DNA of 64,000 nucleotides from Amphibalanus amphitrite. Its lineage: Eukaryota > Arthropoda > Thecostraca > Balanomorpha > Balanidae. Below the pieces are notes generated by a model. The model made no database searches, was not told the origin of the DNA, and saw only the letters and a program-made list of their open reading frames with translations. Below are positions 4,655 through 47,916 of the stretch, in pieces; the first letter of the stretch is position 1, and each line of letters starts with the position of its first letter. The DNA is taken from the NCBI RefSeq assembly GCF_019059575.1, contig NW_024881574.1, positions 864,001-928,000 of the forward strand. Direction: 5' to 3'. Made by a program: the position numbers and the translations under genes.

Positions 4655-4658
4655 TTAA

Positions 4659-5587
4659 CCCTCGCCCGTAAGCGGTGTTTTGCCACCTTCGCCCATGCAG
4701 GGGGGGGGGGGTTGGTGCGACCCCCCCCCCCTGGCGTTTGAAAACGAAGCGTCGTAGAGCTTAGCGGAAATGACCAACGGATTGCTCTCAACGAGATCTC
4801 ACGATTGGTGGTATATTTTTTGGTCCTAGGTCAACATTTAACCTACTTATGACCGGTCAAAGGTCAAATTTTCGAGAAAAAAATCTAACTTTTTCAGATT
4901 TCCGCGCCGATTGCGGCAAAACGGTAAGAGATATCGACTTGAAACCTTCACTATCGTGATCCTTGATCAATTCTCTATCGTTTGGTGTGTATTTCGATGT
5001 CATAACTCTAAAAATGATGCGTTGGGAGCATCGGAAGTCTGCAAGGTCATTTGTGCATTGGGTCACGTCAGGCGTGTGACGTCACTGACCTGACCCTGAC
5101 CCAAAATGAACTACAAGAAACAACCGACGATGCCTGAAATGGATAGCAAATTCGAATTCAGGGCATCAAAATACCCCGAAAAGGCATACAAGTGCAAGAA
5201 GTCATTACAGGTCAACCGAGGTCACTGACCTTACCTTGACCTTAAGTGACCTTCAAAATGTCAACGGACATTGTGTCAATGTCAAATCATCCAGTTGTGA
5301 TTCTAAAACAAAACAATCCATCAGTGCGTCAGGTCAGTCGGCATTTACATATACCTACCAATGTGAAGCAATCTCCAATTTAGCGTAAATCTGGCCGGAG
5401 GTTGTTCCCTTTATGACGTCATAACTCCGTGACCTGACATGACCTTGACAAAAAATATCAAAAGTTGCGCAAAGGATGCCCCAAAGGGTACTGAAAATTT
5501 GACCAGACTATCTGAAACGGTTCGGCGTGTAGCTAAGAAAAACCTCAGGGGGAGGGGTTGCACCCCCCCCCCCTACATGGGCGAGGG
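4659..5587 (+). mobile_element. TTAA-hairpin element A
   Basis: TTAA at 4655-4658 precedes the left end CCCTCGCCCGTAAGCGG, which is followed by a second, related motif (CCTTCGCCCATGCAGG) and a G-run/C-run pair around the loop TTGGTGCGA. The right end on the opposite strand is CCCTCGCCCATGTAGGGG, so it matches the inner left motif. The right TTAA has mutated to ATAT. The interior has TGACCT/AGGTCA hexamers, TGACGTCA and the end-2 motif AAAAACCTCAGGGGG. No transposase is present. It is the same subfamily as element B: both carry CGTCGTAGAGCTTAGCGGAA after end 1. Confidence 0.85.
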
Positions 5588-6077
5588 ATATTTCCTATAA
5601 GCCCAACCCATACACGACCCCATGGCCCGGCCCGAGGTGCTCGGGTGGTATCGTTGCGTAAGGAATCGCTTCAGCATCACGATAGGGAGCGCCCTTGTTC
5701 AGACAAGAGAGGACGCCAGAATAGGGCTCTGGCCTCCGGGGCAGAGGACGTTTATGTCACTTGTGTTTGAGCTACAATGGTATCAGGGACGTAGGTAGCC
5801 AAGCGGGAGGGGTGTGGGCACGGGGGCCATGCCCCCCTAAAGACGAGAAATAAAATAGAATAAAACAAAAAATAGATAAAAACAGCTGCACCACTAACCC
5901 CCAAAAATAGTGGGCCAAATCCGAAGTTTTCCTTTTTGGAGGGGGTACGACACCTGTGGCCCCTGTGGCCCCTCCCTGAACAAAATCCTGGCTACGTGCC
6001 TGCATGCCGCATGGTATAGGAACTCTTTGATTCACCAAGCACTTGAGTGGCTGTTCGTCTGTCTATTTAGCTGAGAT
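5588..6077. other. no recognised gene
   Basis: A short spacer between element A and the hAT-type end at 6078. It includes an A-rich patch near 5850-5880 and a GGGCCCCTGTGGCC stretch. I recognise no gene. Confidence 0.5.
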
Positions 6078-6084
6078 CAGGGTT

Positions 6085-6240
6085 GTGCTTGACTCATGAG
6101 TCGCGTCAGAGATTTGACTCAACTCTTGACTCAAATGAGTCAGATTTGAGTCGAGTGGCGGATAAAATGTTGAGCTGTTGAGTTGAGTCAGAGTTGGGTC
6201 AGACAAAAATATTAAGGTGTTGAGTTGAGTCAGAGTCCAG
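6085..6240. repeat. TGAGTC-rich left arm of the 10.1-kb hAT element
   Basis: TGAGTC or GACTCA hexamers occur about every 10-20 bases in both orientations, some as TGAGTCA, the consensus of bZIP (AP-1-like) sites. The matching right arm occupies 14826-14910 and 16008-16210. As subterminal repeats of a hAT element they are likely transposase-binding sites; any host-factor binding is inference. Confidence 0.7.
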
Positions 6241-6419
6241 GCGCGCACACAGGATTTTTTAATGGGGGGGGGGGCACGACCTTCGAACTGGGCCCCCCAT
6301 GCCGAAGGCCCCCCCCCAAAAAAATATGGCCCACGGGGCTATATTTCGGTTGGTTTGGAGCTTGAGCAATTGGTTTGTCAATGCATGGTAAAACAATTAT
6401 TTCGGTACCAGCAGCTTAA

Positions 6420-7367
6420 CCCTCGCCCGTAAACGGCGATCTGCCACCTTCGCCCATGCAGGGGGGGGGGGGGGTTGGTGCGACCCCCCCCTTGGCGTTT
6501 GAAAACGGAGCGTCGTAGAGCTTAGCGGAAAAGACCAACGGATTGCTCTCGCCGAGATCTCGCGATTGGTGGTATATTTTTTGGTCCTAGGTCAACATTT
6601 GACCTACTTTTGACCGGTCAAAGGTCAAATTTTCGGAAAAATAGACTTTTTTCAACTTTCGGCGGCGATTGCGGCAAAACGGTGGGAGATATCGACTTGA
6701 AACCTTCACTATCCTGTTCCTTGATCAATTCTCTATCGTTTGGTATGTATTTCGTTTCCCTAGCTCTAAAAATGGCGCGTTGGGAGCGCCGGAAGTCGGC
6801 AAGGTCACAGTCGGCGGCAGAAATTCGAAAAATCAAAATTTAAATTTTTGAAATCTGATTGTATTTTTGGATTTGGGAGGTCCATTTGCTCCCTATAGAA
6901 GCTAATATTGCTGCATATTCCCTTTGAGGTGACAAGAATTAGCAAAATAGTGGTTCGGGCGCTTTTCAAAAATAGTACCGGACGCTGTTCCTCTTGTGAC
7001 GTCATAGCTCCGTGACCTGACCTGACCCGGTCAAGTTTCTTATACCATATGATAGCCAATACTTGCCCCAACATGCATGGGAAGTTTCATCACGATCCAT
7101 CAACCGATCTCCGTACCACCGGCAGGAAACCTCGGGCGTTGGCACTCAGTTTGTGAAAATTCGGCCGGAGGCTGTTCCCTTTGTGACGTCATAACTCTGT
7201 GACCTGACATGACCCGGTCAAATTTTTTTTATCAAAAGATGCGCAAGGTTTGCCCCATAAGGTACCCAAAATTTGGCGGCGCTGCGCGCCGCCGTTTTTG
7301 CACTATTTCCGAAAAACCTCAGGGGGGGGGGGGTTGCACCAACTTATCGCCCCTACATGGGCGAGGG
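6420..7367 (+). mobile_element. TTAA-hairpin element B
   Basis: Perfect TTAA flanks lie at 6416-6419 and 7368-7371. End 1 (left) reads CCCTCGCCCGTAAACGG and then, about 25 bases in, CCTTCGCCCATGCAGG followed by a G-run, the loop TTGGTGCGA and a C-run. End 2 (right) on the opposite strand is CCCTCGCCCATGTAGGGG. Inside are AGGTCA/TGACCT hexamers, TGACGTCATAACTC, and a GGCGGCGCTGCGCGCCGCC hairpin shortly before the CGAAAAACCTCAGGGG motif. It is close to element A in its first 250 bases. No ORF of substance is present, so it must have been moved by a transposase supplied in trans. Confidence 0.92.
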
Positions 7368-7734
7368 TTAATTTTCAAAACATATATATTTTTACGCTAG
7401 GCTGTTTTTTCTCAAATGCGATTCAGAGCCGGTACATATACTCATCTAATCATCTAATTTATTACGTAAAACATTCCATTAATAAACATTTTTGCAGGTC
7501 CCTCAGAAATCAGCCCCGGGCAGCGACTGACTGCCGGCCGGCCGACCGGCTCCGGGTGGCTAGAAGCAGGGGCCGGTCACTGTTTGGCCCGGATGTGTAG
7601 GAGCGGGAGCAGCACTCCTTTTTCACGTATATTCGCATATTTTTTAGGCACATCGACATGAAATGTCATTATATCTGATACGATGCGGGATCACAGACTA
7701 GAGATCCAGCTTATAACTTATATTTAATGCTTAA

Positions 7735-8924
7735 CCCGCGCCCTGGTGTGGGTCTGAGCCACCTTCGCCCTGGTGGGGGGGGGGGGCAAAATGACCCCCC
7801 CCCCCGTCTAACTCGAAAACGAAGAGGGCTAGGAAGACGCGGAAAAAAGCAAACGAAAGCCCATAACAAGTACGTTCGAAAGTATTTCAGTCATTTTTTC
7901 GCTAAGGTCAATATTGAGGTCGCTAGAGGTCATCATAGGTCAAATTTCAGTGTTTTCGGTGTTGCCGGACATATTCCGCTGTAGCTCGGAAACTAGAAGA
8001 GCTAGAGAGCCGCGGAAAAAAGCAATCGATAGCTCTTTTCAAGCTCTTTCGCCAAGGTTCGTCAGATTTGACCTCAGCTCAACGGTTTGGCCCACAGAGG
8101 TCATGCAAGGTCAACTTGGCAAATTTCGTTGAAAATGTTTTTAACTATAGCATGCATTCACGAGAAAATAGAGAAACGATTCATGCACCATCGTGCTTGG
8201 CTCGTCGAGACGCGTCGAATGATATATAGTTTGACCTCGAAAGGTCATTTTGAAAATTTGACCTCAGGTCAAGGTCATGACCTTACCGAAATAGGTCATG
8301 CTGCATATCATTCGATCCGCATTGACGAGACAAACACGATAAACGTCGAACGGAGTCTCTATCTCTATTCAATAACAAGTAAGTGCAGAAAAACCGCTGG
8401 TGACCTCTGGTGACCAGGGAGATGACCTAGCGTGACCTCAGCGAGGTCACAAGCAAATGGTTTCACATGGGCTGTGATTTGCTGACCCAAGACACTTCAA
8501 TAACGAAATATAGGAACAATCACGCCCGATTTAGCTGAAAAACAACTACTTTTCGATTCTCCCATTGACTTATAATGGGGAGCAGCGATGACCTGACCTG
8601 ACCTTAGGTCACATTTATAAAAAATCCGAGATAGCCATTTTGTAGAGCTGGGTGACATCTTCAAGTACTGTAAATTTTACATCGATCGGATAAAAGCTGT
8701 GCCTTTGAGAGAGCTTTGAACTTTTTTAGAGGTGGTGTCAGTTTTGGTGACCTTGTGACCTGACCTGACCTGACCCGAACCCCCCAAAAAAGGACATGAT
8801 GTAAAAATGTTGAATAAACAGCTATACAAAGTTTCAGGGCGCTAACTCAAGTGGTTTCTGAGTTATCGCTGAAAAACCACAGGGGGGGGGGGGCCAAAAT
8901 GGCCCCCCCCCACCAGGGCGAAGG
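7735..8924 (+). mobile_element. TTAA-hairpin element C
   Basis: TTAA flanks lie at 7731-7734 and 8925-8928. End 1 has the outer motif CCCGCGCCCTGGTG and the inner motif CCTTCGCCCTGGTGGGGG. End 2 on the opposite strand is CCTTCGCCCTGGTGGGGG, a perfect match to the inner motif. The G-run/C-run loops are CAAAATGA (left) and CCAAAATGG (right). The interior is dense in TGACCT/AGGTCA, including CCTGACCTGACCTGACC near 8760, and has a CCCATTGACTTATAATGGGG hairpin near 8563 shared with D, E and H. Confidence 0.92.
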
Positions 8925-9239
8925 TTAACCAATGAATCAAATCAACAGGACTATGTACGATGCATGTCGGACACGTACCCAGAATTTCGCCCAAGAGGGG
9001 GTCACCTGCTGGTCACCTGACCCCGGGCCCGCGAGTCACCCGGGCGCCCGGGGTCAGCTCAGGCAAGGATGTATGTACCCAGGACCTTTCGATGGGAGGA
9101 GGCAGGCACGGTGGGTCCAGTCTCACTGGCAGACGGGTCTCTTTAAAACGGTCTTTGCATGAGAAAATGTGGAAAATTGGCAAGCAAAAGTATCATTTAT
9201 GCCCGAGGAGTGTGCCTAATGTAGGTACACTAATGCCTA

Positions 9240-9564: not shown

Positions 9565-9568
9565 TTAA

Positions 9569-10554
9569 CCCTATTCCTGGCGGGCTCCGCCGGGACAAGA
9601 AACTGGCGGGGGGGGGGGCGATTCGGCCCCCCTTCAGATCTCAAAAACTACACATCGCAGCGACAAACGGTAAACGGCTCGGATACGCACGGTCAAGATC
9701 TACAATTTTTACTAAGGTCATTTTCAGGTCAGGTCAAAGATGACGTCACAGGGGTCGAAAAAGTCAAAATGGCGGCGCTAGATATGGAGAGAGTTTTTCT
9801 CGAATAACTTTCGAATTAGTCAAGATAGGAACAAACTAAGGGCATCATCGTGATCCTCTCGTCAATTCGCATCGAATGATATATATGTTGACCTCGAAAG
9901 GTCAAGGTCAAAGGTTGACCTCAGGTCACGTGACCTCGAGGTCATCATGCATATCATTTGATGCGTCTTGACGAGCTGAACACAATGAGACCATCCACGC
10001 GTCTGTATCTTGTTCCTGTACGGAGTTATTGGCCAAAAACCTTTGGTGACCTTTGATGACGTCACATGACCTCACAGCTGCCCAACAGCAAAACAGACCT
10101 CAAGGTAGTGAAGGTTGATCGTATATGAAGTCATGTATGGTATATGGGGCCATTCCGACCCGTTTTAGTGGTAAAAACAGGGAGTTGATTTTTCCCCCAT
10201 TGACTTATAATGGGGAGGTCGCGAAACTGACCTGACCTTAGGTCACCGATATCAAAATTCCGAGATATACAAATTGCACATACTGGTACCCTAACTAAAG
10301 CCTGAAGAGAAGAAATTGATCGGTCAAAAACTCTACCTCTGGCGTGATTGCAAACTTTTCTGAGGTAGGGTCACCAAACCGCCTCTGGTGACCTGACCTG
10401 AGGTCAGATCAACTCAAAATTTTCAGACATGTTGCGTAGAAGCCTTTTGGGAAAAGTCAGAAAATTTGAGCTTCCTAGCTCAACGCGTTTGGGAGAAATA
10501 AACAAAAAACCTCAGGGGGGCTCCTGAGGCCCCCCCCCCCCGCCAGGAATAGGG
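9569..10554 (+). mobile_element. TTAA-hairpin element D
   Basis: TTAA flanks lie at 9565-9568 and 10555-10558. End 1 is CCCTATTCCTGGCGGG with a shorter second motif AACTGGCGGGGG and a G-run/C-run around CGATTCGG. End 2 on the opposite strand is CCCTATTCCTGGCGGGGG, matching the outer copy. These ends are unlike those of B or C, yet the overall plan is the same. The interior is nearly the same as element E from about 9620 to 10260, including ATATGGAGAGAGTTTTTCTC, AGGTCA arrays and the CCCATTGACTTATAATGGGG hairpin. Confidence 0.92.
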
Positions 10555-10558
10555 TTAA

Positions 10559-11864: not shown

Positions 11865-11868
11865 TTAA

Positions 11869-13768: not shown

Positions 13769-13836
<68 letters not shown>

Positions 13837-14545: not shown

Positions 14546-14549
14546 TTAA

Positions 14550-14700: not shown

Positions 14701-14704
14701 TAGT

Positions 14705-14818: not shown

Positions 14819-14921
14819 CCTTGTCAGAGTCGAGTCAGTAAAATATCTTATGACATTGAGTTGAGTCAAAAACATTTAGGAACATGAGTCAGCTGACTCA
14901 TCTTTCTAGAAACAATATATA

Positions 14922-15907
14922 CCGGGTGTCCACGTCAAAAGTGTACCCAGACTTTTCTCCATATTTTATCTTAAAAACATCACACTCATGAACAATTGCC
15001 CTTGTTTGAGAGCCAAGGCAATGGCAAAACATTTGCTATGCTTTTCAACTGTGCTCGGCACTCTGCTGACCAGCGTGTGCCGTCTAGAGCAACTGTTCTA
15101 TATGAGCCCCTTTGAGTCGGGCCACCGCCGGCAGATAGACCGTCTGGAGGTGGGTGATCGCCTGGTCAACCATGTGGGAAGGAAGGCGACGGATCTCGTC
15201 GCTGATGGTGTCTTTCAGCTCCTGGGTCGACCCTGGATTGCCGGCGTACACACAGTCCTTGAGAAAGCCCCGCAAGAAGAAGTCTATAGAGGGCTGAGGT
15301 CGGGCGAGTGGGGAGCCCATTCCACCGCGCTTTTCAAGCTGATGTGGCGGTCAGGAAAGTGCTCCTCCAGGAATTCCAGCGACCGTTTGGCGGTGTGAGG
15401 CGGCGCCCCGTCCTGTTGAATTCATTCTTGATGGCGACGGATCCCGCGTCTCCGCTTCAGCTCTCGCCAGAATGGTTCCAGTGCCGCCGAGACGTAACGT
15501 TCTAGCGTTACGGTGTTGTGTTTGTCGCTCCCCTGTCGTCTTCGAAAAAGAAGGGGCCGATAATGCTCCCTCCATGCCTCATTGCCACCCAAACCATTAC
15601 TTTCTTGCTGTGCAGAGGCATGGTCTGAACTTTTTCTAGGCGGTGGGATCCCCAGTGCATGGGGCATTGTGGGATTTCACATGCCACGGTCCGTCTGCCG
15701 GCGGTGGCCCGAAGCAAAGGGGCTCATATAGAGCAGTTGCTCTAGACGGCACGCGCTGGTCAGCAGAGTGCCGAGCACAGTTGAAAAGCATAGCAAATGT
15801 TTTGCCATTGCCTAGACTCTCAGACGAAGGCAATTGTTTGTGAGTGTGATGTTTTTAAGATAAAATACGGAGAAAAGTCTGGGTACACTTTTGACGTGGA
15901 CACCCTG
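14922..15907. mobile_element. mariner-type element with 222-bp inverted arms
   Basis: TA dinucleotides flank the element (14920-14921, 15908-15909). Its ends are CCGGGTGTCCACGTCAAAAG and the complement of CAGGGTGTCCACGTCAAAAG. Pairing continues with few mismatches for about 222 bases (14922-15143 with 15686-15907), much longer than standard mariner ends. Between the arms, on the minus strand, is a broken transposase. It sits between the TGAGTC-rich stretches of the 10.1-kb hAT element and so inserted there later. Confidence 0.88.
15084..15717 (-). pseudogene. mariner-like transposase remnant
   Basis: Read on the minus strand from 15717 downward, fragments in successive frames match the mariner/Tc1 DDE transposase core. 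They include KKVMVWVAMRHGGSIIGPFF, then IQQDGAPPHTAKRSLEF with the second catalytic aspartate, then HSPDLSPL where the third aspartate region should follow. A TGA replaces a codon just before IQQDG. A one-base frame change separates SPDLSP from IDFFLRGFLKD. The N-terminal DNA-binding part and first catalytic aspartate are missing. It is therefore a dead internal fragment; the long arms may have formed by inverted duplication of the ends. Confidence 0.88.
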
Positions 15908-16007
15908 TACCTATAAGCTTTTCATTCTCCCCCCGCTTAACAACCTAGGCCTGGAGCTGCTGCCGGATTTTTTTCACCCCCCCCCCTCGCTCAACAACTT
16001 TTTTATC

Positions 16008-16210: not shown

Positions 16211-16504
16211 CACAACCCTGGCTGAGATGATAGGAAAAACATGTCTATGTAGGTATTTCTTCTTCTGTTATTCCCTCGTTTCCCTGGCTAGGCACTTTCG
16301 GCTCATTTAGCTAATATCGGTGCCGTAGGCATGAGAGGGTAATGGGGAGGCTGATGCAGCTATTGAGAGAGTTGAGCACGCACAGCTAGGAGTGACTGAG
16401 TTGCACTGCTGGGGTAGGCCCCACAGCCTTTCACGTGGTTTCCAGGGGTCACATCAGACGAGCATGTCCGTATGGGACGGCCCTCTTCCGGATGCCTGGG
16501 TTAA

Positions 16505-17512
16505 CCCGCGCACCGACGGGGGTCTGCGCCAACTTCGTACCGACGGGGGGGGGGCGGATGACCCCCCCCCTGAGATCTCGAGAACGAAGCAAGATAGCGA
16601 CAAGCGGTAAACGGCATCGGATACGCACGGACAAGGTCTACAATTTTTACAAAGGTCATCTTCAGGTCAGGTCAAAGATGACGTCACAGGGGTCAAAAAA
16701 GTGAAAATGGCGGCGCTAGATATGGAGAGAGTTTTTCTCGAATAACTTTCGAATAAGTCAAGATAGGAACAAACTAAGGGCATCATCGTGATCCTCTCGT
16801 CAATCCGCATCGAATGATATATATGTTGACCTCGAACGGTCAAGGCCGAAGGTTGACCTCAGGTTACGTGACCTCGAGGTCATCATGTATATCATTCGAT
16901 GCGTCTTGACGAGCTGAACACAATGAGACCATCCGCGTGGATGTATCTTGTTCCTGTACGGAGTTATTGGCAAAAAACCTTTAGTGACCTCTGATGACGT
17001 CACATGACCTTACAGCTGCCCAACAGCAAAACTGACCTCAAGGTAGTGAAGGTTGATCGTATATGAAGTCATGTATGGTATATGGGGCCATTCTGACACG
17101 TTTTAGTGGTAAAAACAGGGAGTTGATTTTTCCCCCATTGACTTATAATGGGGAGGTAGAGAAATTGACCTGACCTTAGGTCACCGATATCAAAATTCCG
17201 AGACATACAAATTGTAGCTACTAATGACCTGATAACATCCTGCGACTTTCAAAGGCCTCCGACATCTACTGTAGCTCTGGCACGGTGACAAAGTTGCAAA
17301 AAAGTGACTTGAGGTTGAGTCATTCAAAGTGACCTGGTGACCTGACCTTAAAAGTTAGGAGGTTCAAACTTGCACACCATGTGTAAAATTGATGTGAAAA
17401 TAGTCTTACCGAATTTCGCGGCGCTACGCGCGCGGTTTTCACGCTATTCGCGAAAAACCTCAGGGGGGGCGGATATCCGCCCCCCCCCCCCCCCCCCGTC
17501 TCGGTGCGCGTG
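16505..17512 (+). mobile_element. TTAA-hairpin element E
   Basis: TTAA flanks lie at 16501-16504 and 17513-17516. End 1 has CCCGCGCACCGACGGGGG, then a second motif CTTCGTACCGACGGGGG, and a G-run/C-run around CGGATGA. End 2 on the opposite strand is CACGCGCACCGAGACGGG, and its hairpin contains GCGGATATCCGC. The first 700 bases match element D closely. The last part, with AATTTCGCGGCGCTACGCGC before CGAAAAACCTCAGGGG, resembles B, H and J instead. Confidence 0.92.
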
Positions 17513-17913
17513 TTAAGGCGGCGGATATCTGGGAAAGGGAAGCACGATAAAAAAGAATTGTCAGTCGCTGATTTTAGATTGCCGATGGCTCTGCTTTAGT
17601 TGCCTTTTTATTGGAACAATGTGTATAATCGTCCGGGTTAAGTGTGAATCATCCTGCTAGTGGCAGCTAGCAAACTCCAGCCAGCCAACTACCGTACTTC
17701 CGTCGTGACCCGCATCGTGGCGCTGTGACAGCCAGAATAGAGGACGCCACCAGCGATGTGGCCCTCCAATGCGGGAGGAGCCTTGTCATGGTAATGATTG
17801 GGAGCGGACTGAAATGGTCACCGAGCTGAGCACCGGATAGAAAGCGCTAGGCATGATGGGAGATGCGATGATGGAACGTATTGCTGTGTAAATGCTTATT
17901 TTGTCCAGGTTAA

Positions 17914-19121
17914 CCCGCGCGGGGCTGGGGTCTCCAGCCGAACGCGCGGGGCTGGGGGGGGGGGGTAAATTTTACCCCCCCCCCCTGTTATCTCCCGAAC
18001 TAATGGTCCGATTTGGAAAATTCAAACGCCAATCGAAAGATCTCATCACGAACAAATAAAAACATGTACTTAATTTAAAGTTTGAGGTCAAGGTCAAGGT
18101 CAGGTCAAGGATACAAATTGCAAGTTTCTACAGTATCGGTCTTGCACCGTAGTTGCCGAAGAATGGAGTCATCGACTGAGACTGATTGCCCAAAACGTGT
18201 TCTTAGGCTACCAAGACAATATTCGTTGCATACAATATCATTCAGAGGTCAAGGTCAAGGTCAGGTCAGGTCAGGTCAGGTCACCAAAAAACAAAATATA
18301 GAAAAGGGCATGTGCGACACATGTTTTATGGGTCATTTTACTCATAGAATTCAATAGGCACACTCAATAAGTGATATGGACCACCTCTGGATGAATTTCA
18401 GGTCGAGGTCAGGTCAAGGTCAATACAATACAATACAATACAATACAATACAATACAAAGGTCAGGTCAAGTGAGGTCAAATTTTGAAGTTGGTTGTTAA
18501 GGCCTAAAAAGGTGTCTATCTGATGCAGTGTTTCACGGCGAATCGAATGATGCTATTTTTGTTTCCGTACGAGGTCTAGAACTTCCAAAAAATCATTTTT
18601 CAAAATTTTTGTGTGTCGTGACGTCATAAAATTTTGAATAACTCCCACATTTTTTAACCGATTCTTCTAAAAATTGGTATGTAGGTGCACATATACCACT
18701 TCTCTGATATATATTCCGTTTTTTTTTGACACACTCAAAATTTTGGATTTTATAACTATTTTCCCCAAAAAAGTCAGTTTTTTTTAAACAAATTTGGGCC
18801 AAAATCCAAAATTTTCAAAAAACCGAGACAGCCATTTGATAGACAAAGTAGAATTACGTATAACCTTTTTTGTTACGTCTTGATTCCTTTAAAAATGAAG
18901 ATGTTAGCGGCGTTTGAAGTTTTGCCGTTTTTGAGGCGAAAATGGCGAACATGACGTCACTAAAACGTCAATTTCTCAAAAATTTTCCGACGGATTTCGC
19001 TCAAATTTCAGGGAACGTGTCAAATTGATGTAAGAAAAGGTACGCGCCGCCGTTTTTTGAAATATTGCAAAAATTCGCGAGGGGGGGTAAAATTTACCCC
19101 CCCCCCCCAGCCCCGCGCGGG
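17914..19121 (+). mobile_element. TTAA-hairpin element F
   Basis: TTAA flanks lie at 17910-17913 and 19122-19125. End 1 is CCCGCGCGGGGCTGGGG, repeated as ACGCGCGGGGCTGGGGG. End 2 on the opposite strand is CCCGCGCGGGGCTGGGGG, a perfect match. Both hairpins have the loop TAAATTTTA. It carries the longest AGGTCA arrays in the window (18085-18111, 18246-18284, 18400-18423) and a (CAATA)7 tract. The end-1 subterminal segment AATTCAAACGCCAATCGAAA is shared with I, K and L. Confidence 0.93.
18421..18455. repeat. (CAATA)n microsatellite
   Basis: Seven tandem CAATA pentamers lie between two AGGTCA clusters inside element F. Confidence 0.95.
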
Positions 19122-19145
19122 TTAAGATAATTCTGCACGAATCAG

Positions 19146-25877: not shown

Positions 25878-25881
25878 TTAA

Positions 25882-26769
25882 CCCTCGCATGTGTAGGGGG
25901 GGGGGGTCGGATGGACCCCCCCCCATGGTTTTTCGCGAATAACTCGCGTAAAAAGCGGCCGATCGCGACGAAACTTTCAGTACCCTCGCATTGATCAATT
26001 TTACACCTACCCTGAAAATTTCATGACCCTGACCCAAATGACCTTTGACCTGTGACCTCTTTTCCGAGACCATGTTTGGCCGGAATCGCGATTTAGCGTA
26101 TGTCGGCTCGCACTAGCCGCGTGTTTGCAAGCTTTTCGTGGTTTCAAACGTTCAAACATGTGATTTGATGTTACTCCCGTGTGTGTCAAGGTCACCTGAA
26201 GGTCAGGTCAGGTCATTGACCTTTGGTGACCTCGGGTGACCTCGGGTCACTTTTTCGAGTTTTACATGTTTCTAGGCTAGTTTTTGGAGCTGAATTCGAA
26301 TTTAGCAACCATTTGAACATTTACGAAGTAGTTTTGGTGACTTCGTAACATGTTACGAAGCTGTCAGAGGCGGTTGACACGTACTACGAATACCCGTCAC
26401 GACGCCTACTGGTTGACCTGACCTGACATGACCCGACCTGGTCTAAATGCTTCAAGACATCATCTGTGATCAAAACTAACACGATATTCGTGATCAGCAC
26501 CCCGAAAAACCCCTTAGCCGCCACACTTTACGACTTTCTAACAGGTCCCGATTTTCCCGACTTTGGGTCATTGACCTGACCTGGAAGGTCAACCAATGAC
26601 CTAGGACCTTAAAATTGGGTATCATCGGCTTCCTCTCGTCACGGGCAACACGCTCGTTTTTTCCGCGAAGCTCTAGCTCAATCAGGGGCCAAACGGCAAG
26701 GGGGGGGTCCAACCGACCCCCCCCCCCCCTACACATTAGAAGCTGGAAAACGCCGCACACATGCGAGGG
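25882..26769 (-). mobile_element. TTAA-hairpin element G (reverse orientation)
   Basis: TTAA flanks lie at 25878-25881 and 26770-26773. Here end 2 is at the left: CCCTCGCATGTGTAGGGG, a G-run/C-run around GTCGGATGGAC, then CATGGTTTTTCGCGAATAAC. End 1 is at the right: on the opposite strand it starts CCCTCGCATGTGTGCGGCG and about 30 bases later repeats AATGTGTAGGGG, then a hairpin with loop GTCGGTTGGAC. The interior has many TGACCT/AGGTCA hexamers (for example near 26190-26250, 26410 and 26570). Confidence 0.92.
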
Positions 26770-26773
26770 TTAA

Positions 26774-27957: not shown

Positions 27958-27961
27958 TTAA

Positions 27962-28989
27962 CACGCGCACTGCAGGGGGGGTTGTTTTCAACCCCCCTGT
28001 GGTTTTTCGCAAATCGCGAGAAAACGGCGGCGCGCAGCGCCGCCAAATTTTGCATACCTGTTCTCCCAACTTTTGCACACCTTGAGTAAAAATTTTGACC
28101 CCAGGTGACCTATGGTCAGGTCACCAGGTCAGGTCAAGTGATCCTACCTCGAAACGTAAATTTCGAAGTTTGCAATCCCACCAAGCCCACAGTTGTTGAG
28201 ATATGATCTTGAAACCCACAGGAAATAGTAAAGTCATCACGAGCTACAACTTCTATATCTCGGAATTTTTATATCGATGACCTAAGGTCAGGTCATTTTT
28301 GCGACCGGCCCATTATAAGTCAATGGGAGAAATTTCAACTTACTCTGAATGCCATCCTATGACTTCAATACGCTGAGGATCATAGTATTACAGGTCCCTG
28401 TTGGTGATTTCACCGAAACATATCACTTATGACCTTTGGAAGGTGATCTCCAGGTCATCTTAGGTCACCTGAGGTCACCAGCGGTTTTTCTTCAATAACT
28501 TGAGATTGAATAGAGATAGAGACTCCGTTCGACGTTTATCGTGTTTTTTTTTTTCTCGTCAATGCGGATCGAATGATATGCAACATGACCTATTTCGGTC
28601 AGGACATGACCTTGACCTGAGGTCAAGTTTTCAACTTGACCTTTCGAGTTCATATTATATATCATTCGATGCGCCTTGACGAGCTAAGAACGATGGCGTT
28701 CGAATTGATCCTCTAGCGTGTGTGCAAGACAAGTTATTCAAGAAAAACTACCGCGAAATTCCTGTTGTGAAAATCGTAACATTTTGTCTTCGGTGACCTC
28801 TGGTGACCTCGTTTTTGACCTGAGACAAAAATGACCTAGTATTTCCTCTAAAGAGCATCTCCACCTATCTAACGCCGTTTACCGTTTGTCGCTACGTTGC
28901 GCCGTTTTTGAGATCTCAGGGGGGGTTGTTTTCAACCCCCCCCCCCCCCTGCAGTTCGTGTTCGGCTCAGACCCGCTGCAGTGCGCGTG
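27962..28989 (-). mobile_element. TTAA-hairpin element H (reverse orientation)
   Basis: TTAA flanks lie at 27958-27961 and 28990-28993. End 2 (left) is CACGCGCACTGCAGGGG with the loop TTGTTTTCAA, then GTGGTTTTTCGC and the GGCGGCGCGCAGCGCCGCC hairpin. End 1 (right) on the opposite strand is CACGCGCACTGCAGCGGG, then a second motif CACGAACTGCAGGGGG, then the hairpin with the same loop and GAGATCTCAAAAACGG. The AGGTCA hexamers and the CCCATTATAAGTCAATGGG hairpin (reverse complement of that in C, D and E) confirm its orientation. Confidence 0.92.
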
Positions 28990-28993
28990 TTAA

Positions 28994-32311: not shown

Positions 32312-32375
32312 TTAACCTGCGACCCGTGGGGGGGGGGGGGGCAAAGGGCCTCCTGTGTTTTTTCGAAGATACCTT

Positions 32376-32396
32376 ACCTTACCTTACCTTACGGTA
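32376..32396. repeat. short CCTTA repeat
   Basis: A run of CCTTA pentamers lies just inside end 2 of element I, next to the palindrome TTACCTTACGGTAA. Confidence 0.8.
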
Positions 32397-32557
32397 ACGG
32401 GATTTTTTTTTAGGATGTAAGGCCTGTGGGACCCGATGTTGGCGAGCTCCTGGTGTCAAGCATAGCTCAGTCCGTGTCGTGGAGATAACTGAGAAACGGC
32501 TGCGAATTTTGACTGGAAACTTTCAGTACCTCTCCGGACATCAATTTTACACAACTC

Positions 32558-33936
32558 GTGTAATCGTGCCTGTGAACGCGTCGTGTGCACCCAGCTGATG
32601 GACTATCTAACCGGCCATCATATCCTCTGTGCGCAGCAGTACGGGTTCCGCCCCGGCCAATCCACGGAGGCGGCCCTGCTCGATGCTGTCGGTCACATCA
32701 CCGATAACATCGACGGAGGGCGCGTGACATCACTCGTCACCGCTGACACCTCCAAGGCGTTTGACAGCGTCGAGCATGGTCGCCTCTTGGAGAAGCTGGG
32801 GTGGTACGGTATTGATGACCGGTGGTTCCGTGCATGGCTTTCCGACCGCACGCAGTCAGTTAGAGGTGGATCGGGTGCTGAGCTGCCGGTGACGCATGGG
32901 GTGGTGCAGGGCAGCATAATGGGCCCAGTGTTGTTCCTGGTGTTCTCCAATGACTTGTCACAACACGTGCCGCATGGGAGGCTTGTTATGTACGCTGACG
33001 ATGCCCAGTTTATAGATTCAGACTCGCCAAGAAACCTGTCAGAGCTTAAATGCCGCGTAGAACAAACCCTGTCTGTAGCTCTCTGCTGGTTCACGCAAAA
33101 TAGGCTAAAGATAAACCCTTCGAAGACCGAACTGCTTATCTTGAGATCCTCACGCCAAAATGATAATGTCAACTTCACCGTCAAATTCGGCGAGTCGGAA
33201 GTCGTGCCTGTGCAGTCGGTGAGGGTCCTAGGCGTCAACATCGACTCGTGCCTGACGTGGGAGCAGCATGTGGCTGCGATCACTCGCCGATGTTACTGCG
33301 TTCTGATAGGGCTGGCCAGAATGCAGCGTCGTGTGCCGCGTGAGACAAAGCAGCTGTTGGTCGAGGCACTGGTATTCCCTCATCTGCAGTACTGCATGTG
33401 CGTGTGGGGAAGCTGCACAAAGACCCAAAAGCACAGACTTCAGAGGTGCATGAATTTTGGCGCCCGCATTGTCACTGGTCTTGGCTATCGTGAACACATT
33501 TCCGGGACACTGCGAGAGCTTGGATGGCGGGTGATCGAGGACATGATAACTGAGCGTGACCTGTGCGTCATGTACAACCTGAACCATGTCGAGAGCGCCC
33601 CTGAGCTTCTCCGCTCACGCATCACCCACCGCTCTGATGTGTCTGTGCGTGAAACGAGAGCGACACGTGACGGCGAGCTGGAGGTGCCGCGGGCCCGCAC
33701 AGAGTTTGCCCGTCGGTCGTTCTTCAATCGGGCGGTGAGAGCGTGGAATAGGCTACCGCTGAGTGCGAGAAACGCGTCTTCTCTTCCTGTCTTTAAAAAG
33801 TGTATCGCAGATGCCTTTTAAAGGGTGATGCAAATGTGGATTGATAGGAAAATGCTTTTACTTGTGCTACATGACGTGGAACGCTGAAAACCCATTTTAT
33901 GGATGTATTCCTAAATATATGATATGATATGATATG
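32558..33936 (+). mobile_element. 5'-truncated non-LTR retrotransposon (LINE)
   Basis: The insert is bounded by ACAACTC at 32551-32557 and 33937-33943, probably the target duplication. It begins abruptly inside the reverse transcriptase domain and ends in a short pentamer tail (GATAT repeats at 33920-33936) instead of a poly(A) tract. Short microsatellite tails are usual for the CR1/L2/Rex-like side of the LINEs. It lies inside element I and is therefore younger. Confidence 0.88.
32559..33821 (+). CDS. LINE reverse transcriptase, C-terminal part (5' truncated)
   Basis: The frame is open from the truncation point to TAA and contains the palm of a non-LTR reverse transcriptase. It has QQYGFRPGQSTEAAL, then LVTADTSKAFDSVEHGRLL, then GVVQGSIMGPVLFLVFSNDL, then the catalytic MYADDAQFI, followed by LKINPSKTELLIL and the thumb and C-terminal GLARMQRRVP region ending WNRLPLSARNASSLPVFKK. 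Endonuclease and fingers are missing. The GTG at 32583 is not a real start: the frame is open upstream to the insertion boundary (ACERVV precedes it). No frameshift or internal stop is seen, which suggests a recent insertion. The family is CR1/L2/Rex-like by these motifs; exact clade not determined. Confidence 0.92.
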   Translation, partial: CNRACERVVCTQLMDYLTGHHILCAQQYGFRPGQSTEAALLDAVGHITDNIDGGRVTSLVTADTSKAFDSVEHGRLLEKLGWYGIDDRWFRAWLSDRTQSVRGGSGAELPVTHGVVQGSIMGPVLFLVFSNDLSQHVPHGRLVMYADDAQFIDSDSPRNLSELKCRVEQTLSVALCWFTQNRLKINPSKTELLILRSSRQNDNVNFTVKFGESEVVPVQSVRVLGVNIDSCLTWEQHVAAITRRCYCVLIGLARMQRRVPRETKQLLVEALVFPHLQYCMCVWGSCTKTQKHRLQRCMNFGARIVTGLGYREHISGTLRELGWRVIEDMITERDLCVMYNLNHVESAPELLRSRITHRSDVSVRETRATRDGELEVPRARTEFARRSFFNRAVRAWNRLPLSARNASSLPVFKKCIADAF

Positions 33937-34798
33937 ACAACTCCTAACATATAGGTCCCAGGTCATCTAAGGTCACGAGCTATAGAGGTCAGACTGAGGT
34001 CATGTTCGGCAACTTTTCGTCGAAAAAGTTGTTAACGAAGAAAAATCACAGAAACTCAGGGTTTTGACTTAGCGACTCAAAAATTGGACCGTAGGAATAA
34101 AAAGTACCTACGGCAAACAACATGGCTATCTCGAAATTTCCAAAATATAAAAATGTCTAGATCTAGGGATTTTCTTATCAGCATCTTGCTGACTGAATAT
34201 GATCCTTTACGTGACTAAAGTCACTTTGCGTAAAAAATTGGCTTCCGTTGTAAGCCGGTAGAATTTGACCTTATTTTACCTACCTGTGACGTCATAGGTC
34301 CAAGAAAAATGGTCAAGGAGGTTTCTGTGGTTGCATATGTATGACATGTCTTCATAAAGACTCGAATATTCACAATTTAACATGCCTTTCCTTACGATTC
34401 AACAAAGTGTTTTCTAATTGGTCGAGGCTGACCCCTGGTGTGACGTCACAGGTCATCATCCACTCAGGTGACTATCTATCCACATGCCAGATCTATCATA
34501 TACATCATATCCAGACTCATTTTGAAAACTTAGATTTCATTTTTATGACCGACTTCTCGTCATTGCAAATTGGACTGATTTGACCTTGTTTGACCTACCT
34601 GTGACGTCACAAGTCAAATACCAAGGTCATCGATATCCTATCTTGTGCATCTCGATGAGCTCTTTCGATTGCCGTTTGAATTTTTCCGATCCGGCTATTG
34701 GTTCCGGAGATATGACGGGGAGGTCCTTTGCCCCCCCCCCCCCCCCCCCACCCCAACAGGACGTGGAACCTGCCAGACCTCAACGGGGCGCGGCTTAA

Positions 34799-38750: not shown

Positions 38751-38907
38751 GATATTTACCTACTGTCATTGTCATTGTATCGCGCTACTGTGATCTTAGT
38801 TTACTTGTCATCTTCATGTGTTTCGTACTGTTATGACGATGATCGGAGAAAAGCCCTGCCTTATAGTGGATCGATCTGATAATGTTTAATAAATGAATAA
38901 ATAAATA

Positions 38908-41016: not shown

Positions 41017-41206
41017 CCAGTAAACATGCCGACGTCGGCCGACGTGGGGGTGACGTCGGCATCTCGGCATCGGCATGCCGACGTCGACCCGACGTCGGTC
41101 CAACCTCGGCACGACGTCGGCTGGATGTCGGATATGCCCGCATGTACCGACGTCCAGCCGAGGTCCAGCCGACGTCGGGCCGACGTCGGACCGATATCGG
41201 CCGCTG
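41017..41206. repeat. GACGTCGG palindromic repeat, copy 1
   Basis: It begins CCAGTAAACATGCCGACGTC and continues with repeated CCGACGTCGG palindromes and variants. The right terminus seen in the copy at 41943 is missing. All six frames are open through much of it because the sequence is a low-complexity GC repeat; the Pro-Thr-Ser frames are not genes. Confidence 0.75.
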
Positions 41207-41267
41207 TTTTGACCGTTGAAATAATATAAAATGCATGTTTCATTTTTCATAAAGAGCTTCTGTATTC

Positions 41268-41745
41268 AAAATATCCTCAGGAAACTCAAATCTTCCTCCA
41301 CGCCGCAACCCCCTGATCCGGACTGGACGGGAAATTTTAACCCATTTGGGATTGCCCGTAAGCCTAGCTCGCCCGTAGCCGGATGCGGAGAGTGCTTGGG
41401 GGCTGCCCGGCCTATCCTTTGGTCAGGCTCAGCACCGGCAACTCACCAGGGCCGGGCCCAGTTCATATAGAAAGGCCAGTCGGCAAGTGTCACTTTGCCA
41501 AAGTGCCACTTATCAAAGGGACACTTTGGGAAACGTTGGTGCAGGTGTGTTTGAGTGGCTATATGAATCCATTGTGGGGTCGCCCTTTCCAATAAGTGTC
41601 ACGTAACAGCAATGGGACCAGGGACTCTGTATGAACTGGACCCAGGGTGCTCGCCAAGAAGACCAATGTCTCCATCCTATCATCCTTCCGGCTCTGAAAT
41701 GGTCTTGTCAGACCGAAAGGGCATAATCCAACAAAACAAACTAAA
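41268..41745 (+). repeat. dispersed SINE or LINE-tail repeat, copy 4, interrupted
   Basis: The left part matches copy 1 up to GCACCGGCAACTCACCAGGG. The right part resumes at CCAGGGTGCTCGCCAAGA and ends with CTATCATCCTTCCGGCTCTG and CCAACAAAACAAA. Between them (about 41455-41645) is an insert with inverted ends GGGCCCAGTTCATA and TATGAACTGGACCC, a small non-autonomous element. Confidence 0.72.
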
Positions 41746-41779
41746 TTCGATCTCTGGCCAAGGCCCTCTAGCCCTCTGG

Positions 41780-41865
41780 ATGCGTGGTTTAGTGGTTAGC
41801 GCACTACCCTCGCGTTCAAATAACACGGGGTTCGAATCCCATCGCCGGCTGATGCTTTTGGCGTG
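41780..41865 (+). repeat. tRNA-derived SINE fragment
   Basis: It contains a polymerase III A-box-like TGGTTTAGTGGTTAGCGC and, 30 bases on, the B box GGTTCGAATCCC. The flanks do not pair to form a tRNA acceptor stem, so it is a tRNA-derived SINE head and not a working tRNA. The following segment (GCCGGCTGATGCTTTTGGCG, TGTTGTCCC) is repeated with a degenerate B box at about 41900-41945, a local tandem duplication. Confidence 0.72.
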
Positions 41866-41866
41866 T

Positions 41867-42188
41867 TGTCCCAGTAAACATGCCGACGTCGGCGACTGGG
41901 GGGCTCGAATCCCGCCGCCGGTTGATATTTTTGGCGCGTTGTCCCAATAAACATGCCGACGTCGGCCCCGTCGGTCCAACGACAAACGATCTCGTCAACC
42001 TCGGCAAACGACCTCGGCCCGACGTCGGCCCGACGTCGGCTCGACGTCGGCTGGACTTCGGCTGGACGTCGGAACATGCGGGCATGTCCGACGTCCAGCC
42101 GATGTCGGGCCGAGGTTGAACCGAAGTTGGGCCGACGTCGGGCCGAGCCTCGGCCCGAGGTCGGGCCGACGTCGGCATGTTTACTGGG
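41867..42188. mobile_element. GACGTCGG foldback element, copies 2 and 3
   Basis: A partial copy starts at 41867 (CCAGTAAACATGCCGACGTC). A fuller copy runs 41943-42188, with CCAATAAACATGCCGACGTC at the left and GACGTCGGCATGTTTACTGG at the right as inverted ends. The body is made of GGCCGACGTCGG-type palindromes in imperfect tandem. It could fold into a very stable cruciform. The class of element is unknown to me. Confidence 0.75.
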
Positions 42189-44020: not shown

Positions 44021-44024
44021 TTAA

Positions 44025-44904
44025 CCCTATTAGTGGCAGGCTCCTGGCTACCCCTATTAGTGGCAGGGGGGGCTGTTTACGACCCCCCTCTTGATATCTC
44101 GAGATCTAAGGGGCCGATTTTCAAAATTCAAACGGCATTCGATTTCGCTCAACGTGATCTACATTTCTAAAAAATAAAAATTAAAAAAATATCAATAGGG
44201 GGCAGAGGGGGGTAAAAACGGGCAAATTGCAGATACATTTTTAAACTGTTTATCACGGCCAGGTTTCTGAACCAATCTTAACGCAACTGTTGCCGATCGA
44301 TAGAGAATGAACCAGGAATTCACATGGATCCTAAAAATATGCATTTTCAAAAATCATAGGCGGATACAGATCATTGAGATTGGGGGTACACAAAAAGTAT
44401 AGTAAATAAGGTTTTTGTTGGTACTGTTTCTAAGAAGGGTGGTAATGGTCTTGTTATGTTACAATTTTCTTATGAGAGAACGACTACAATTGTATTGATC
44501 ATGCATAGGCGGTGTCAGGGCACCTATGTTGGGAGGTAAAACATAACCCCCCTTTTTGGACGCCTGGATCCGCCTATTATAGCAAAAACGTGTCAAAAGA
44601 TAACTTTGTATATGTTATCACATGATACCTTTCATTCACTGTTCGTTAAACTGGTGCATACAGTTATTATACATCAGCATCGTGATCTTCGCCCAAATGA
44701 CTCGCTTCACGAATAGGACCCCCCCCATTCCCAGTGCTCTGGAGCCGCCCCTGGTGAAGTTATGAACTTGAAATTTTCAGGGAATGTGCCCAATTTAGTT
44801 TTAGGAAAAGTCAGAAAATTTCAGCATCGTAGCTTCAGCGGTTTCGGAGATATTCCCGAAAAACCTGAGGTGTGGATGAAAACAACCCCCTGCCACTAAA
44901 AGGG
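44025..44904 (+). mobile_element. TTAA-hairpin element K
   Basis: TTAA flanks lie at 44021-44024 and 44905-44908. End 1 is CCCTATTAGTGGCAGG, repeated 26 bases later as CCCCTATTAGTGGCAGGGGG, with loop CTGTTTACGA. End 2 on the opposite strand is CCCTTTTAGTGGCAGGGGG. The segment AAATTCAAACGGCATTCGAT follows end 1, as in F, I and L, and CCGAAAAACCTGAGG precedes end 2. Unlike most copies it lacks AGGTCA arrays, so the ends and not the arrays define the family. Confidence 0.9.
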
Positions 44905-44998
44905 TTAAATATAATAATGATTAATTAATCTTAATGACTGCCCTTAACCCGCGCCCTGGTGGGGTCTGTTTACAACGCGACCTGGTGGGGGGGGGCTA

Positions 44999-46758
44999 CA
45001 CTGTAAACCAAATCTACAAGTTGGCTCCTTGTTACAAGTTTGGTTCCAATTCGCATAGGCGTCACCTTGTCGATTCACCAGTCCCAGGCTTGTTGGCTAA
45101 CAAACTAACAGTTTGTCTACAAGTTTGGTTCCAATTCGCATAGGCGTCACCTTGTCGATTCACCAGCCCCAGGCTTGCTGGCCAACAAACTAACAGTTTG
45201 TCTACAAGTTTGGTTCCAATTCGCATAGGCGTCACCTTGTCGATTCACCAACCCCAGGCGTGTTGGCCAACAAACTAACAGTTTGTCTACAAGTTTGGTT
45301 CCAATTCGCATAGGCGTCACCTTGTTGAGTACTAGTCTGGGCCTTGTGAACCTACCAACTTCTGGATAGGCATAGCCGTTTCCTTGTCGGTTCAACAACC
45401 CCTGGTTTGTTGATGAACTAGCCTTTGACTGGGCATTGCTAGTTTACAAATTGTCAACAAGTAAGTGTACTAACGCTCAGTTCGAACTTGTTCTTCCTTA
45501 CAATCGCTTTGTTTGCGTTGATAACCTTAAGAACTTACGATTCGCGTTCGTTTTCAATTGCCACGATACTGATTCAGGAAATATTTTCTATACGGACAGG
45601 TCATTTTTTGGCTGGAAGTGGTGCACAAAATCATGACTGGCATCAGTTATTGCTCAAAGGCTTGCGCTGACAAGAAACGGAATACTGATGGGTTATATAA
45701 TCGATGAATGCATACACCACATCCATTCGGAAGTTTCTGGAATCATTAGTATTTATTACGGTCACGTACCTACATCACGTAGTATGTAATTATTACTATT
45801 GACTGGAGACAATTCCAAGTGCATATTTTCGAATGGATGTGGTAAATGCATGAGGTATAAGGTATACCTATCGTGCACCGTCAGCATATAAGTCTTTGAA
45901 GCAAGAACTGCTGCGTATGTGGAAGAACATGGTTTTGTGCATCGCATCAAGCCAGAAGTATAACATGCCCGTATGACGAATATTTCCACATTGACCATAA
46001 CAATCATGGCAGTTGCACGATCACGCAGATAATTCGAATAAAGCATGATCGCCAACCAGATTAGCTTTTACAGCCCATATATGTCCATCAGTTAAGTTAA
46101 AAATACAAAGAGTTGAATTAAAGGCAAATAAATGTATTTATATATAAAAAAACACCGACCGCAAAACATCTGCTCACATGTGCATGCAAAGGTCTGGCCC
46201 ACTTACATTGCGCGCGCAGGGGAAGGGAGGCGTCTCGACCGCGGGTATAGGCACGATTAGTGCGTCCCGCAGGCCAGAGCGGGCCTCACTCACAGCACGA
46301 ACACCACAGTTCACAGATTTCACTTTTTACTGCACAAATGCTGGAACAGCCCTCGTCGCTGATCCATGCTGCACGGCGGCCGCGCGACAACTGCTGGTTT
46401 GAACGGTTTGAAACCGCCGCGCCGGGGCCGGACGGCGACCGCTGATTGGTCCGCCAAGTCTGACGTCACGGGCGCAGCTGACCATGTGTATGCTGACCAG
46501 CTGACCAGTACAAGTTAGGCGCCGGTTAAATAACCATGCGGCAACAAGTTTCCAAAACTGGTTAAGAAACAAACGTTGAAACAAATGTAGAGTTGGTCTG
46601 GATACTGAGAAGTTGGTGTGCATAGTAACTATTGACTCGTAGTTGTCATCTGACAAGCAATGCACCAGACAACGGCTTGTTTGAAAAGTATCAGTTGGTA
46701 AACATACCAAGAGATGATTGGTTATATTACACAAGACTTGTCAATTTGGTTTACAGTG
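44999..46758. mobile_element. TA-target element with CACTGTAAACCAAAT ends
   Basis: The 15-bp inverted ends CACTGTAAACCAAAT and ATTTGGTTTACAGTG are flanked by TA on both sides (44997-44998, 46759-46760), as for Tc1/mariner-type insertions. The empty site is confirmed by the intact other end of the host element L. Inside are 85-bp tandem repeats and otherwise AT-rich DNA. No transposase is recognised. Confidence 0.82.
45034..45373. repeat. 85-bp tandem repeat, about four units
   Basis: Units start at 45034, 45119, 45204 and 45289 with ACAAGTTTGGTTCCAATTCG. The first three are full and nearly identical; the fourth diverges after CACCTTGTTGAG. Each unit contains the inverted pair ACAAACT/AGTTTGT. 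A frame runs through part of the array on each strand, but unit length is not a multiple of three and no motif is seen. Confidence 0.92.
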
Positions 46759-47916
46759 TATTTTTTGCCCCCCTCGTATCTCCGAAACTACTGGACGGAT
46801 CCGCAAAATTCAAACGGCGTTCGAAAGGCCTGTCAAATTTGTTGAAGGAAACCAAATTTTATTGACCTCGGGGTCACCGATGACGTCACAGGTCAGGTCA
46901 AAGATGAACTGTTTCACCGTTCACGGGTCTGCTAAGGAATGCGCTATAACACCGAGGAAAACGCATTTTGTCGATTATCAGCGATAGGGCGTCAGTTGCC
47001 TAGTAGATATGTTGCTATTAGAGGTCACTGACAATACCAGGTCAGGTCACAGGTCAGGTCACCAAGGGTCACAGGTCAGGTCACATGAGCCCAACTTTAC
47101 TAAGGTTGTGTGATGCATGTTTTATGGCCAATTTTTCATTTCCAACTCAATGGTGTTGGTTATAAGACTATCAGGTACGGCTTAGGTCACTTTCTGGTGA
47201 AGTTCAGGTCAAGGTCAGGTCAAGGTTAGGCCAAAAAAGGTCAAATTTTAAAGTTGATAGTTTTGCATAAAATGGGTATTGATTCGATGCAGCTCGTCAC
47301 GGGGAGTCTAATGGTGGTCTTTGTTTTGCGCTACGGGGTCTAGAATTGCTAAAAATTGAGTTTGAAAATTTGACGTCATCAATTTTGAACAGTTGTTTCG
47401 CTATAACTTCGCAAAAAAAAGAGGTATCAATCTCAAATTTGGTATGTAAATGGAAGGCAGTAAGTACTATCACATATATTCCGGTTTTTGCGAAATTCAA
47501 AAGCTTTTTGGATTTTTCGATTATTATATCCAAAAAATTCATTTTTTGATTTTTGGGGGTCCAAATCCAAAAATTTCAAAAATCCGAGATAGCAGTTTTG
47601 TAGTCCTGTTGATTCTACAGCTTTTATGTCTTTATCATTTTTCCGTATTTGCAAAGCTATAGGCCTGACAGCTCTTCCCGCGAAACCCTTTTTTGGGTCG
47701 AAAACGGCAGAACATGACGTCACTCTGACGTCATTTCCGACCAACCTATCATAGCCTTTGGAAAAAAAAATTTGGTCACAATGTGTAAAATTGATGTCCG
47801 GGAGGGTACTGAAAGTTTGGTGACGATCGGCGCAGCGGTTCTGGAGATAAATCGAAAAGTCTAGAGGGGGGGGGGGGCAAAAAATAGCCCCCCCCCCCCA
47901 CCAGGTCGCGGGTTAA

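Follow-up and report, generated by a model that had tools for sequence, protein, structure and literature searches.

Why does a 64,000-nucleotide stretch of the genome of the barnacle Amphibalanus amphitrite (contig NW_024881574.1, positions 864,001 to 928,000; termed the window below) harbour a whole family of polar, TTAA-flanked elements whose ends carry palindromes with G-run and C-run arms, and which enzyme moves them? Very probably, these copies are non-autonomous transposons of the piggyBac superfamily, which resemble miniature inverted-repeat transposable elements (MITEs) and are moved by a barnacle transposase clade nearest to Trichoplusia ni piggyBac. Mobilization by a piggyBac-type enzyme had been proposed in an earlier reading of the window (the sequence-only reading), and it is supported by the TTAA ends, by precise empty sites for two elements, and by relatives with G-run ends that carry a PF13843 transposase aligning to moth piggyBac. 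In the following, two-ended elements of the window are lettered A-H, J, K and L, a truncated copy is termed M, and the numbers L014-L042 denote loci fetched from the genome assembly behind the window (807,550,619 bases in 2,644 contigs), whose 807.6 Mb are covered by the genomic counts of the short-end pattern.

The elements share a common end architecture. All eleven two-ended copies are indeed polar and combine one long with one short end. At the short end, TTAA is followed by a 12-15 nt tip and then by a G-run and a C-run that enclose a near-palindromic core of approximately 7-10 nt. At the long end, TTAA and the tip are followed by a spacer, in many cases GGGTCTG-like, after which the inner part of the tip is repeated and the palindrome begins. 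The number of copies, reported earlier as twelve, is confirmed, but only eleven have two ends, the twelfth (M) being truncated. TTAA is intact at both ends in ten of the eleven elements, while the 3' side of A reads ATAT. CCC-type tips likewise predominate without being universal: CCC is present at 16 and CCY at 18 of the 22 ends, and the tips that deviate from CCC are CCT (short ends of C and L), CAC (short end of E and both ends of H) and GCC (long end of L); the tip of M also reads CAC. Both palindrome arms comprise at least 6 bases at 17 of the 22 ends, if the long end of K is read across an insert, but they are broken or short at the other five, namely the short ends of A, B and J and both ends of L.

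The geometry of these ends was compared in 20 elements (the 11 of the window and 9 from fetched loci). The G-run starts 12-15 nt into the short end and, with the exception of F, 39-42 nt into the long end. The palindrome of the long end is thus displaced inward by 26-27 positions relative to that of the short end in 17 of the 20 elements, by 25 in E and by 28 in L. For F, the offset is 27 if a G-run is defined by five bases and 21 if it is defined by four, since the tip of F itself contains GGGG. The 9 nt preceding the G-run show a mean identity of 0.739 between the two ends of one element and of 0.384 between elements; the former value was not reached in any of 10,000 permutations, although the figure is descriptive because related elements are among the 20.

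Beyond the window, a search for the terminal consensus, as suggested by the sequence-only reading, revealed a very large population. A strict short-end pattern (TTAACCC(G/T)CG, 5-12 nt, G7, 4-16 nt, C6) has 13,754 matches on the forward strand, whereas the reversed pattern used as a control is absent from both strands; hence, the ends do not arise by chance. The count for the reverse strand (43,710) includes several readings per site. Since the strict pattern recovers only 3 of the 11 two-ended elements of the window, the true genomic numbers are probably higher. No match to the end patterns was obtained in the viral and prokaryotic contigs scanned, as expected for an animal repeat.

Tips and cores come in many combinations. 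Among the matches listed for contig C1, 71 distinct sites yielded 22 tip strings, two of which are parsing variants. A single core string accompanies 18 of the tip strings (8 of these occur at one site each), and four go with core variants, some of which were created by where the parser cut the G- and C-runs. Examples of pairs are CGGGGCT with TAAATTTTA, CCCTGCT with TGTTTGAACA and CACCGAC with CGGATATCCG. The pairing of tip and core is not one to one: core TGTTTGAACA occurs with two tips (CCCTGCT and CCGGGCC), tip CCCTGGT with two cores (CTATTTTTTG at the listed sites and CCATTTTGG in L040), and at least three tips share core CCATTTTGG.

Empty TTAA sites, the absence of which had been named beforehand as speaking against mobility, exist for B (6416..7371, plus strand) and C (7731..8928, plus strand); they are paralogous, i.e., they lie in further copies of the repeat into which both elements are inserted. 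The two flanks of each of the elements B, C, F and G were joined and used to search the genome, and the best 40 of 415 candidates were scored. The C junction is spanned by 40 of the 40 matches listed, eight of them with 100% identity over 184 nt, and the B junction by 36 of the 38 matches listed, with 86-95% identity. Inspected base by base, two of these loci contain a single TTAA at both junctions; the empty-site match of B has small gaps, including one of 3 nt near the site. Paired coordinates place B and C within one copy of the host repeat, the other listed copies of which lack both elements. The window copy of this repeat was noted at 6326-9018 (outside of B and C), and at least 40 copies elsewhere are nearly identical around the insertion site of C.

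The sequence-only reading also suggested looking for an autonomous copy with a DDD piggyBac transposase, and such copies exist. The genome contains at least 116 scored matches to the piggyBac transposase family PF13843, and the surroundings of 40 loci were fetched, with 1.5 kb per side for the first 20 and 4 kb for the rest, so that ends located further out could have been missed in the first set. G-run ends bound a transposase in six loci (L023, L025, L027, L028, L031 and L040), which represent four families: L025/L027/L028 (98.8-99.4% alike), L031, L040 and L023, where one TTAA is mutated. The L040 family includes two further copies, L041 (99.95% identical over 4,102 bp) and L042 (99.8% identical). 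All three contain a 645-aa frame, and both ends are seen in L040 and L042, which lie in different flanks.

Element C connects the window directly to this family. Stretches of 685 bp and 515 bp match the first 681 and the last 511 bases of the 4,723-bp L040 element with 98.8% and 98.6% identity, respectively, and meet at a junction near 8414/8415; matching both termini, C is an internal deletion of the transposase-bearing L040. Moreover, B and A (4655..5591, plus strand, long end left, 3' TTAA decayed to ATAT) are approximately 89% identical to the long end of L025. Taken together, the set of piggyBac transposons is real, abundant and recently copied.

One further candidate, L020, was rejected as an autonomous G-run element, for its transposase belongs to a separate piggyBac (667-3347, TTAACCCATTAGTGCC ends) nested within a G-run element. 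L014-L020 constitute another barnacle piggyBac family with TTAACCCATTAGTGCC ends and a 604-residue open stretch, which is 99.9-100% identical over about 2.68 kb and was also recently copied. Where legible, the ends of loci without G-runs are, for example, TTAACCCATTAG-, TTAACCCTTTA- or TTAACCCAGAT-like.

The proteins between the G-run ends are related to the moth enzyme. Among the four proteins scanned, that of L040 matches PF13843 with an E value of 9.4e-60, and it aligns to moth piggyBac (chain 6x67; 1.2e-56) over 116-643 and through the zinc-finger domain (CRD). Aspartates of this alignment fall at what we take to be the catalytic DDD positions of moth piggyBac. A protein search scored 7,995 candidates, 21 of which passed 1e-20; the matches comprise A. 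amphitrite records, unnamed relatives of up to 72% identity, and beetle and moth proteins of about 30-36%. One A. amphitrite record (98%, covering half the length) bears the name PiggyBac transposable element-derived protein 4, and another the name HARBI1. In a midpoint-rooted tree of 22 proteins (20 from the 40 loci, plus moth piggyBac and bat piggyBat as printed fragments), the five transposases with G-run ends cluster (support 97/93) and are united with moth piggyBac (100/100) to the exclusion of the 15 other barnacle sequences. The moth-type zinc pattern CxxC...CxxC....CxxH...CxxC is present in L023, L028, L031 and L040 and in none of the 34 loci with a transposase not assignable to G-run ends, 26 of which have another order and 8 neither (some are cut short).

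Hairpins with homopolymer G/C arms just inside the termini had been described as unfamiliar for the superfamily, but a palindrome in this position is known from T. ni piggyBac. According to published descriptions, moth piggyBac shares with the barnacle elements the TTAA, the CCC tip and a palindrome just inside each tip at unequal distances (PMC7351741, PMC11707139). The moth palindrome is a 19-bp palindrome-like repeat, which is bound by a dimer of the C-terminal zinc domain and, as derived from the LE35/RE63 description, is located 27-28 bp further in at one end (PMC7351741), compared to 26-27 in 17 of the 20 barnacle elements. The duplicated tip segment at the long end, the DDD transposase and the order of cysteines and histidines in the zinc domain are likewise the same. 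Thus, only the homopolymer composition of the palindrome arms is unusual, and not the palindrome itself.

Because the end design, the displacement and the tip duplication match moth piggyBac, we read the G-run/C-run palindrome as the predicted site of a CRD dimer. In the model that we propose, the transposase core would bind the tip sequence, while the zinc-finger dimer would bind the palindrome, as suggested by its position, its symmetry and the kinship of the proteins. The second tip copy and the displaced palindrome at the long end would seat a second transposase dimer, which in turn might ensure correct pairing of a long with a short end. The G- and C-runs would represent palindrome arms lengthened by slippage, and a single-stranded hairpin would not be needed. 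Element C may serve as an example: its long-end palindrome (7775..7805, plus strand) is a putative zinc-domain site, and the corresponding short-end palindrome is read from the sequence at 8882..8911 (minus strand).

Several observations weigh against the piggyBac reading or parts thereof. An autonomous partner was found for C only; A, B and G have relatives, and no partner has been assigned to D, E, F, H, J, K or L. The junctions of F and G gave no empty site among the matches listed. The tree contains moth piggyBac and bat piggyBat only as fragments and is rooted at the midpoint only, the branch of the bat protein is long, and the moth and bat sequences have an odd composition; furthermore, the frames of L025 and L027 end before the zinc domain. 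Finally, five of the 22 window ends have broken or short arms, and the distance from the tip to the palindrome axis varies, since G-run length varies, unlike the fixed distance in moth piggyBac.

The last two points lead to the most serious alternative, according to which the homopolymer arms are no recognition feature at all, but a short palindrome was stretched by slippage or assembly error, and only the core and a few adjoining G/C residues count. G-run length ranges from 7 to 16 among the sites of the listed tip types (runs below 7 are excluded by the pattern), and it even differs among L040, L041 and L042, which are otherwise 99.8-99.95% identical. Arms that differ by several bases between near-identical copies imply that slippage or assembly error acts on them, and homopolymer assembly error or slippage could underlie the variation in general. 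Yet both arms reach at least 6 bases at the large majority of window ends, as counted above, and runs are found in all four transposase families with G-run ends. The roughly twenty tip types are no argument here, as the search pattern itself demands runs. On balance, we consider this alternative somewhat less probable than its opposite.

Much less credit is due to the notion that the arms act as extruded or single-stranded hairpins, e.g., in a replicative or terminal-resolution step. Predicted single-strand folds of four ends are better than those of shuffled sequences (z -2.1 to -3.9), and the core of C/L040 and of H is flipped with respect to the tip at just one of the two ends. However, a flip is neutral for a dimeric binder on a near-palindromic core, and the precise TTAA empty sites together with a DDD piggyBac transposase account for movement without hairpins, which renders this explanation quite improbable. 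A TTAA duplication by itself cannot separate piggyBac from Kolobok, another superfamily that uses this target, and to that extent Kolobok fits as a mover; but CCC tips prevail, a PF13843 transposase lies inside the G-run ends of L025, L031 and L040 with no Kolobok transposase found there (four proteins scanned), and C is a deletion of L040, so that Kolobok is very unlikely indeed. That the copies are units of a satellite or a larger tandem repeat, which the sequence-only reading had named as a refuting outcome, is almost certainly wrong. Neighbours may have one TTAA in common (L and M at 34795-34798; L028 at 6071-6074), as would follow from insertion of a new copy into the TTAA of an older one; but the copies are found in either orientation and amid different flanking sequences, further copies of the host repeat contain precise empty sites, and a tandem-repeat search of the window (periods up to 500) detected no array of TTAA elements.

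In addition to their ends, most piggyBac-type elements that were read carry arrays of AGGTCA in their non-coding parts. Counted on either strand and with nested inserts left out, this motif is found 152 times within 11,230 bp of the elements versus 27 times in the 49,410 bp outside; a Markov model predicts a mean of 5.1 and a maximum of 11 (100 runs). L040 contains 32 motifs in 2,785 non-coding bases and 1 in 1,938 coding bases, and L025 contains 12 in 2,055 and none in 1,920, respectively. Seven piggyBacs without G-runs harbour 0-4 motifs each, a further 15 loci totalling 101 kb, some of which have G-run neighbours, average 1.27 per kb, and none is present in J and its relative L036. The arrays resemble nuclear-receptor half-sites, judging by the motif, and may reflect binding of a host receptor, binding of the transposase or products of slippage. 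For another motif, TGACGTCA, noted over 4655-47916, 17 sites fall within 11.2 kb of the elements and 4 within the 49.4 kb outside (palindromic counts halved).

Compared to T. ni piggyBac, the barnacle elements differ in the variable-length G/C homopolymer arms, in other tip and core sequences, in the AGGTCA arrays and in the very large number of non-autonomous copies. Their ends follow the T. ni piggyBac design, and what is new comprises the homopolymer arms, approximately twenty tip/core types and AGGTCA arrays in the non-coding flanks. A table in PMC10813416 lists five full-length and three intact types of A. amphitrite piggyBac, the intact ones of 2708-4732 bp with transposases of 506-645 aa. 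The L042 element (4732 bp, 645-aa frame) coincides with the maximum of this table, and therefore the autonomous L040/L042 family has probably been published already. MITEs were excluded from the same study, the main text of which lacks the terms 'palindrom', 'hairpin', 'subterminal' or 'internal repeat' (PMC10813416). Among the best matches in the open literature, no description of barnacle piggyBac MITEs or of homopolymer piggyBac ends was found (supplements, Repbase and Dfam lie outside this search).

Partial parallels exist in other animals. The coral CMITEs are also piggyBac-related MITE families, which have their internal sequence in common more than their ends and occur in tandem arrays; they differ in host and sequence, and the abstract mentions no homopolymer palindromes (PMC2872659). 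Daphnia Pokey and its mPok MITEs belong to the crustacean members of the superfamily with MITE derivatives (PMC3849761, PMC4912750), but Pokey targets ribosomal DNA, none of which was seen in the barnacle window by the Rfam search. At the left end of Myotis piggyBat, another member, a palindrome comes after a tip motif, whereas the right end lacks a corresponding palindrome and the zinc domain has a topology unlike that of moth piggyBac (PMC11707139, PMC13405395); in the 26 of 34 other barnacle loci, the order of cysteines and histidines is likewise not of the moth type.

The unequal ends of piggyBac, a common tool of genome engineering, have been called enigmatic (PMC7351741). Approximately twenty natural end types, along with recently copied autonomous members, would allow direct tests of how tip, palindrome and spacing control the choice of transposase. 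The non-autonomous copies are numerous enough to shape the barnacle genome, and gene regulation might perhaps be affected as well, provided that host receptors bind the AGGTCA arrays. A more far-reaching proposal, which we put forward tentatively and regard as doubtful in its entirety, is that a T. ni-type piggyBac radiation employs a two-part end code (the tip three times and the core twice per element) with G/C arms in between, that some twenty recognition types coexist in one genome with their parts reassorting, and that AGGTCA was thereby spread to more than ten thousand loci, if array-bearing copies are typical.

The remaining elements of the window are readily placed. Element D (9565..10558, plus strand) is of tip type CCCTATTCCTGGC, and a copy with 96.4% identity is nested inside L031, where the relatives available for comparing the insertion site diverge. 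E (16501..17516, plus strand) has the short-end core CGGATATCCG, and F (17910..19125, plus strand) combines tip CGGGGCT with core TAAATTTTA, the identical tip being found at 12 of the 71 sites among those listed on contig C1. G (25878..26773), H (27958..28993; tip CACGCGCACTGCA) and L (32312..34798) are on the minus strand and have their long end on the right. L is split by a reverse-transcriptase insertion and has irregular arms, and the adjacent M (34795..about 35339, minus strand), which retains the short end only, has one TTAA in common with it. J (44021..44908, plus strand) is of tip type CCCTATTAGTGGCA and devoid of AGGTCA. K (44944..47916, plus strand) contains a TA-flanked insert within its long-end palindrome (44999..46758, no strand assigned), with inverted ends CACTGTAAACCAAAT, TA on both sides and an 85-bp tandem repeat at 45029-45325; going by the TA sites only, the insert may be Tc1/mariner-like. 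Read across it, the long-end core of K is CTATTTTTTG and matches the other end of the element.

Without such later inserts, the elements are about 0.9-1.2 kb long. Not all of their interiors, described earlier as free of coding sequence, are so or are undisturbed: L holds a reverse-transcriptase insert, and the palindrome of K a TA-flanked element. The estimate that the copies occupy a quarter of the window applies if nested inserts are counted (15,138 bp, 24%), but only 11,904 bp (18.6%) align to element sequence.

The window has some further features. No RNA families or tRNAs were reported within it by the Rfam and tRNA searches. At 41078-42176, repeated GGTTCGAATCC-like stretches, which resemble the B box motif of tRNA genes, lie beside a CCGACGTCGGC tandem repeat; a unit similar to a short interspersed element is possible, and no tRNA was called. 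An open frame of 239 residues with the string FDTTAANTG (55822-56541) has no Pfam match up to an E value of 1 and looks like a piece of an undescribed repeat protein. A degenerate 21-bp tandem repeat (GAGGGCCCTTTGACGCCA-like) is present at 11.0-11.9 kb and 14.5-14.7 kb. A foldback element has arms of 229 nt each (14915-15143 and 15686-15914), which are 93% complementary and 542 nt apart, and a dispersed long inverted repeat (2507-2779 and 21200-21473) is 87-95% alike over a distance of approximately 18 kb. Finally, an adenylate-kinase-8-like reading frame on the minus strand (23365-24720) matches proteins of A. amphitrite (99%) and Pollicipes (59%).

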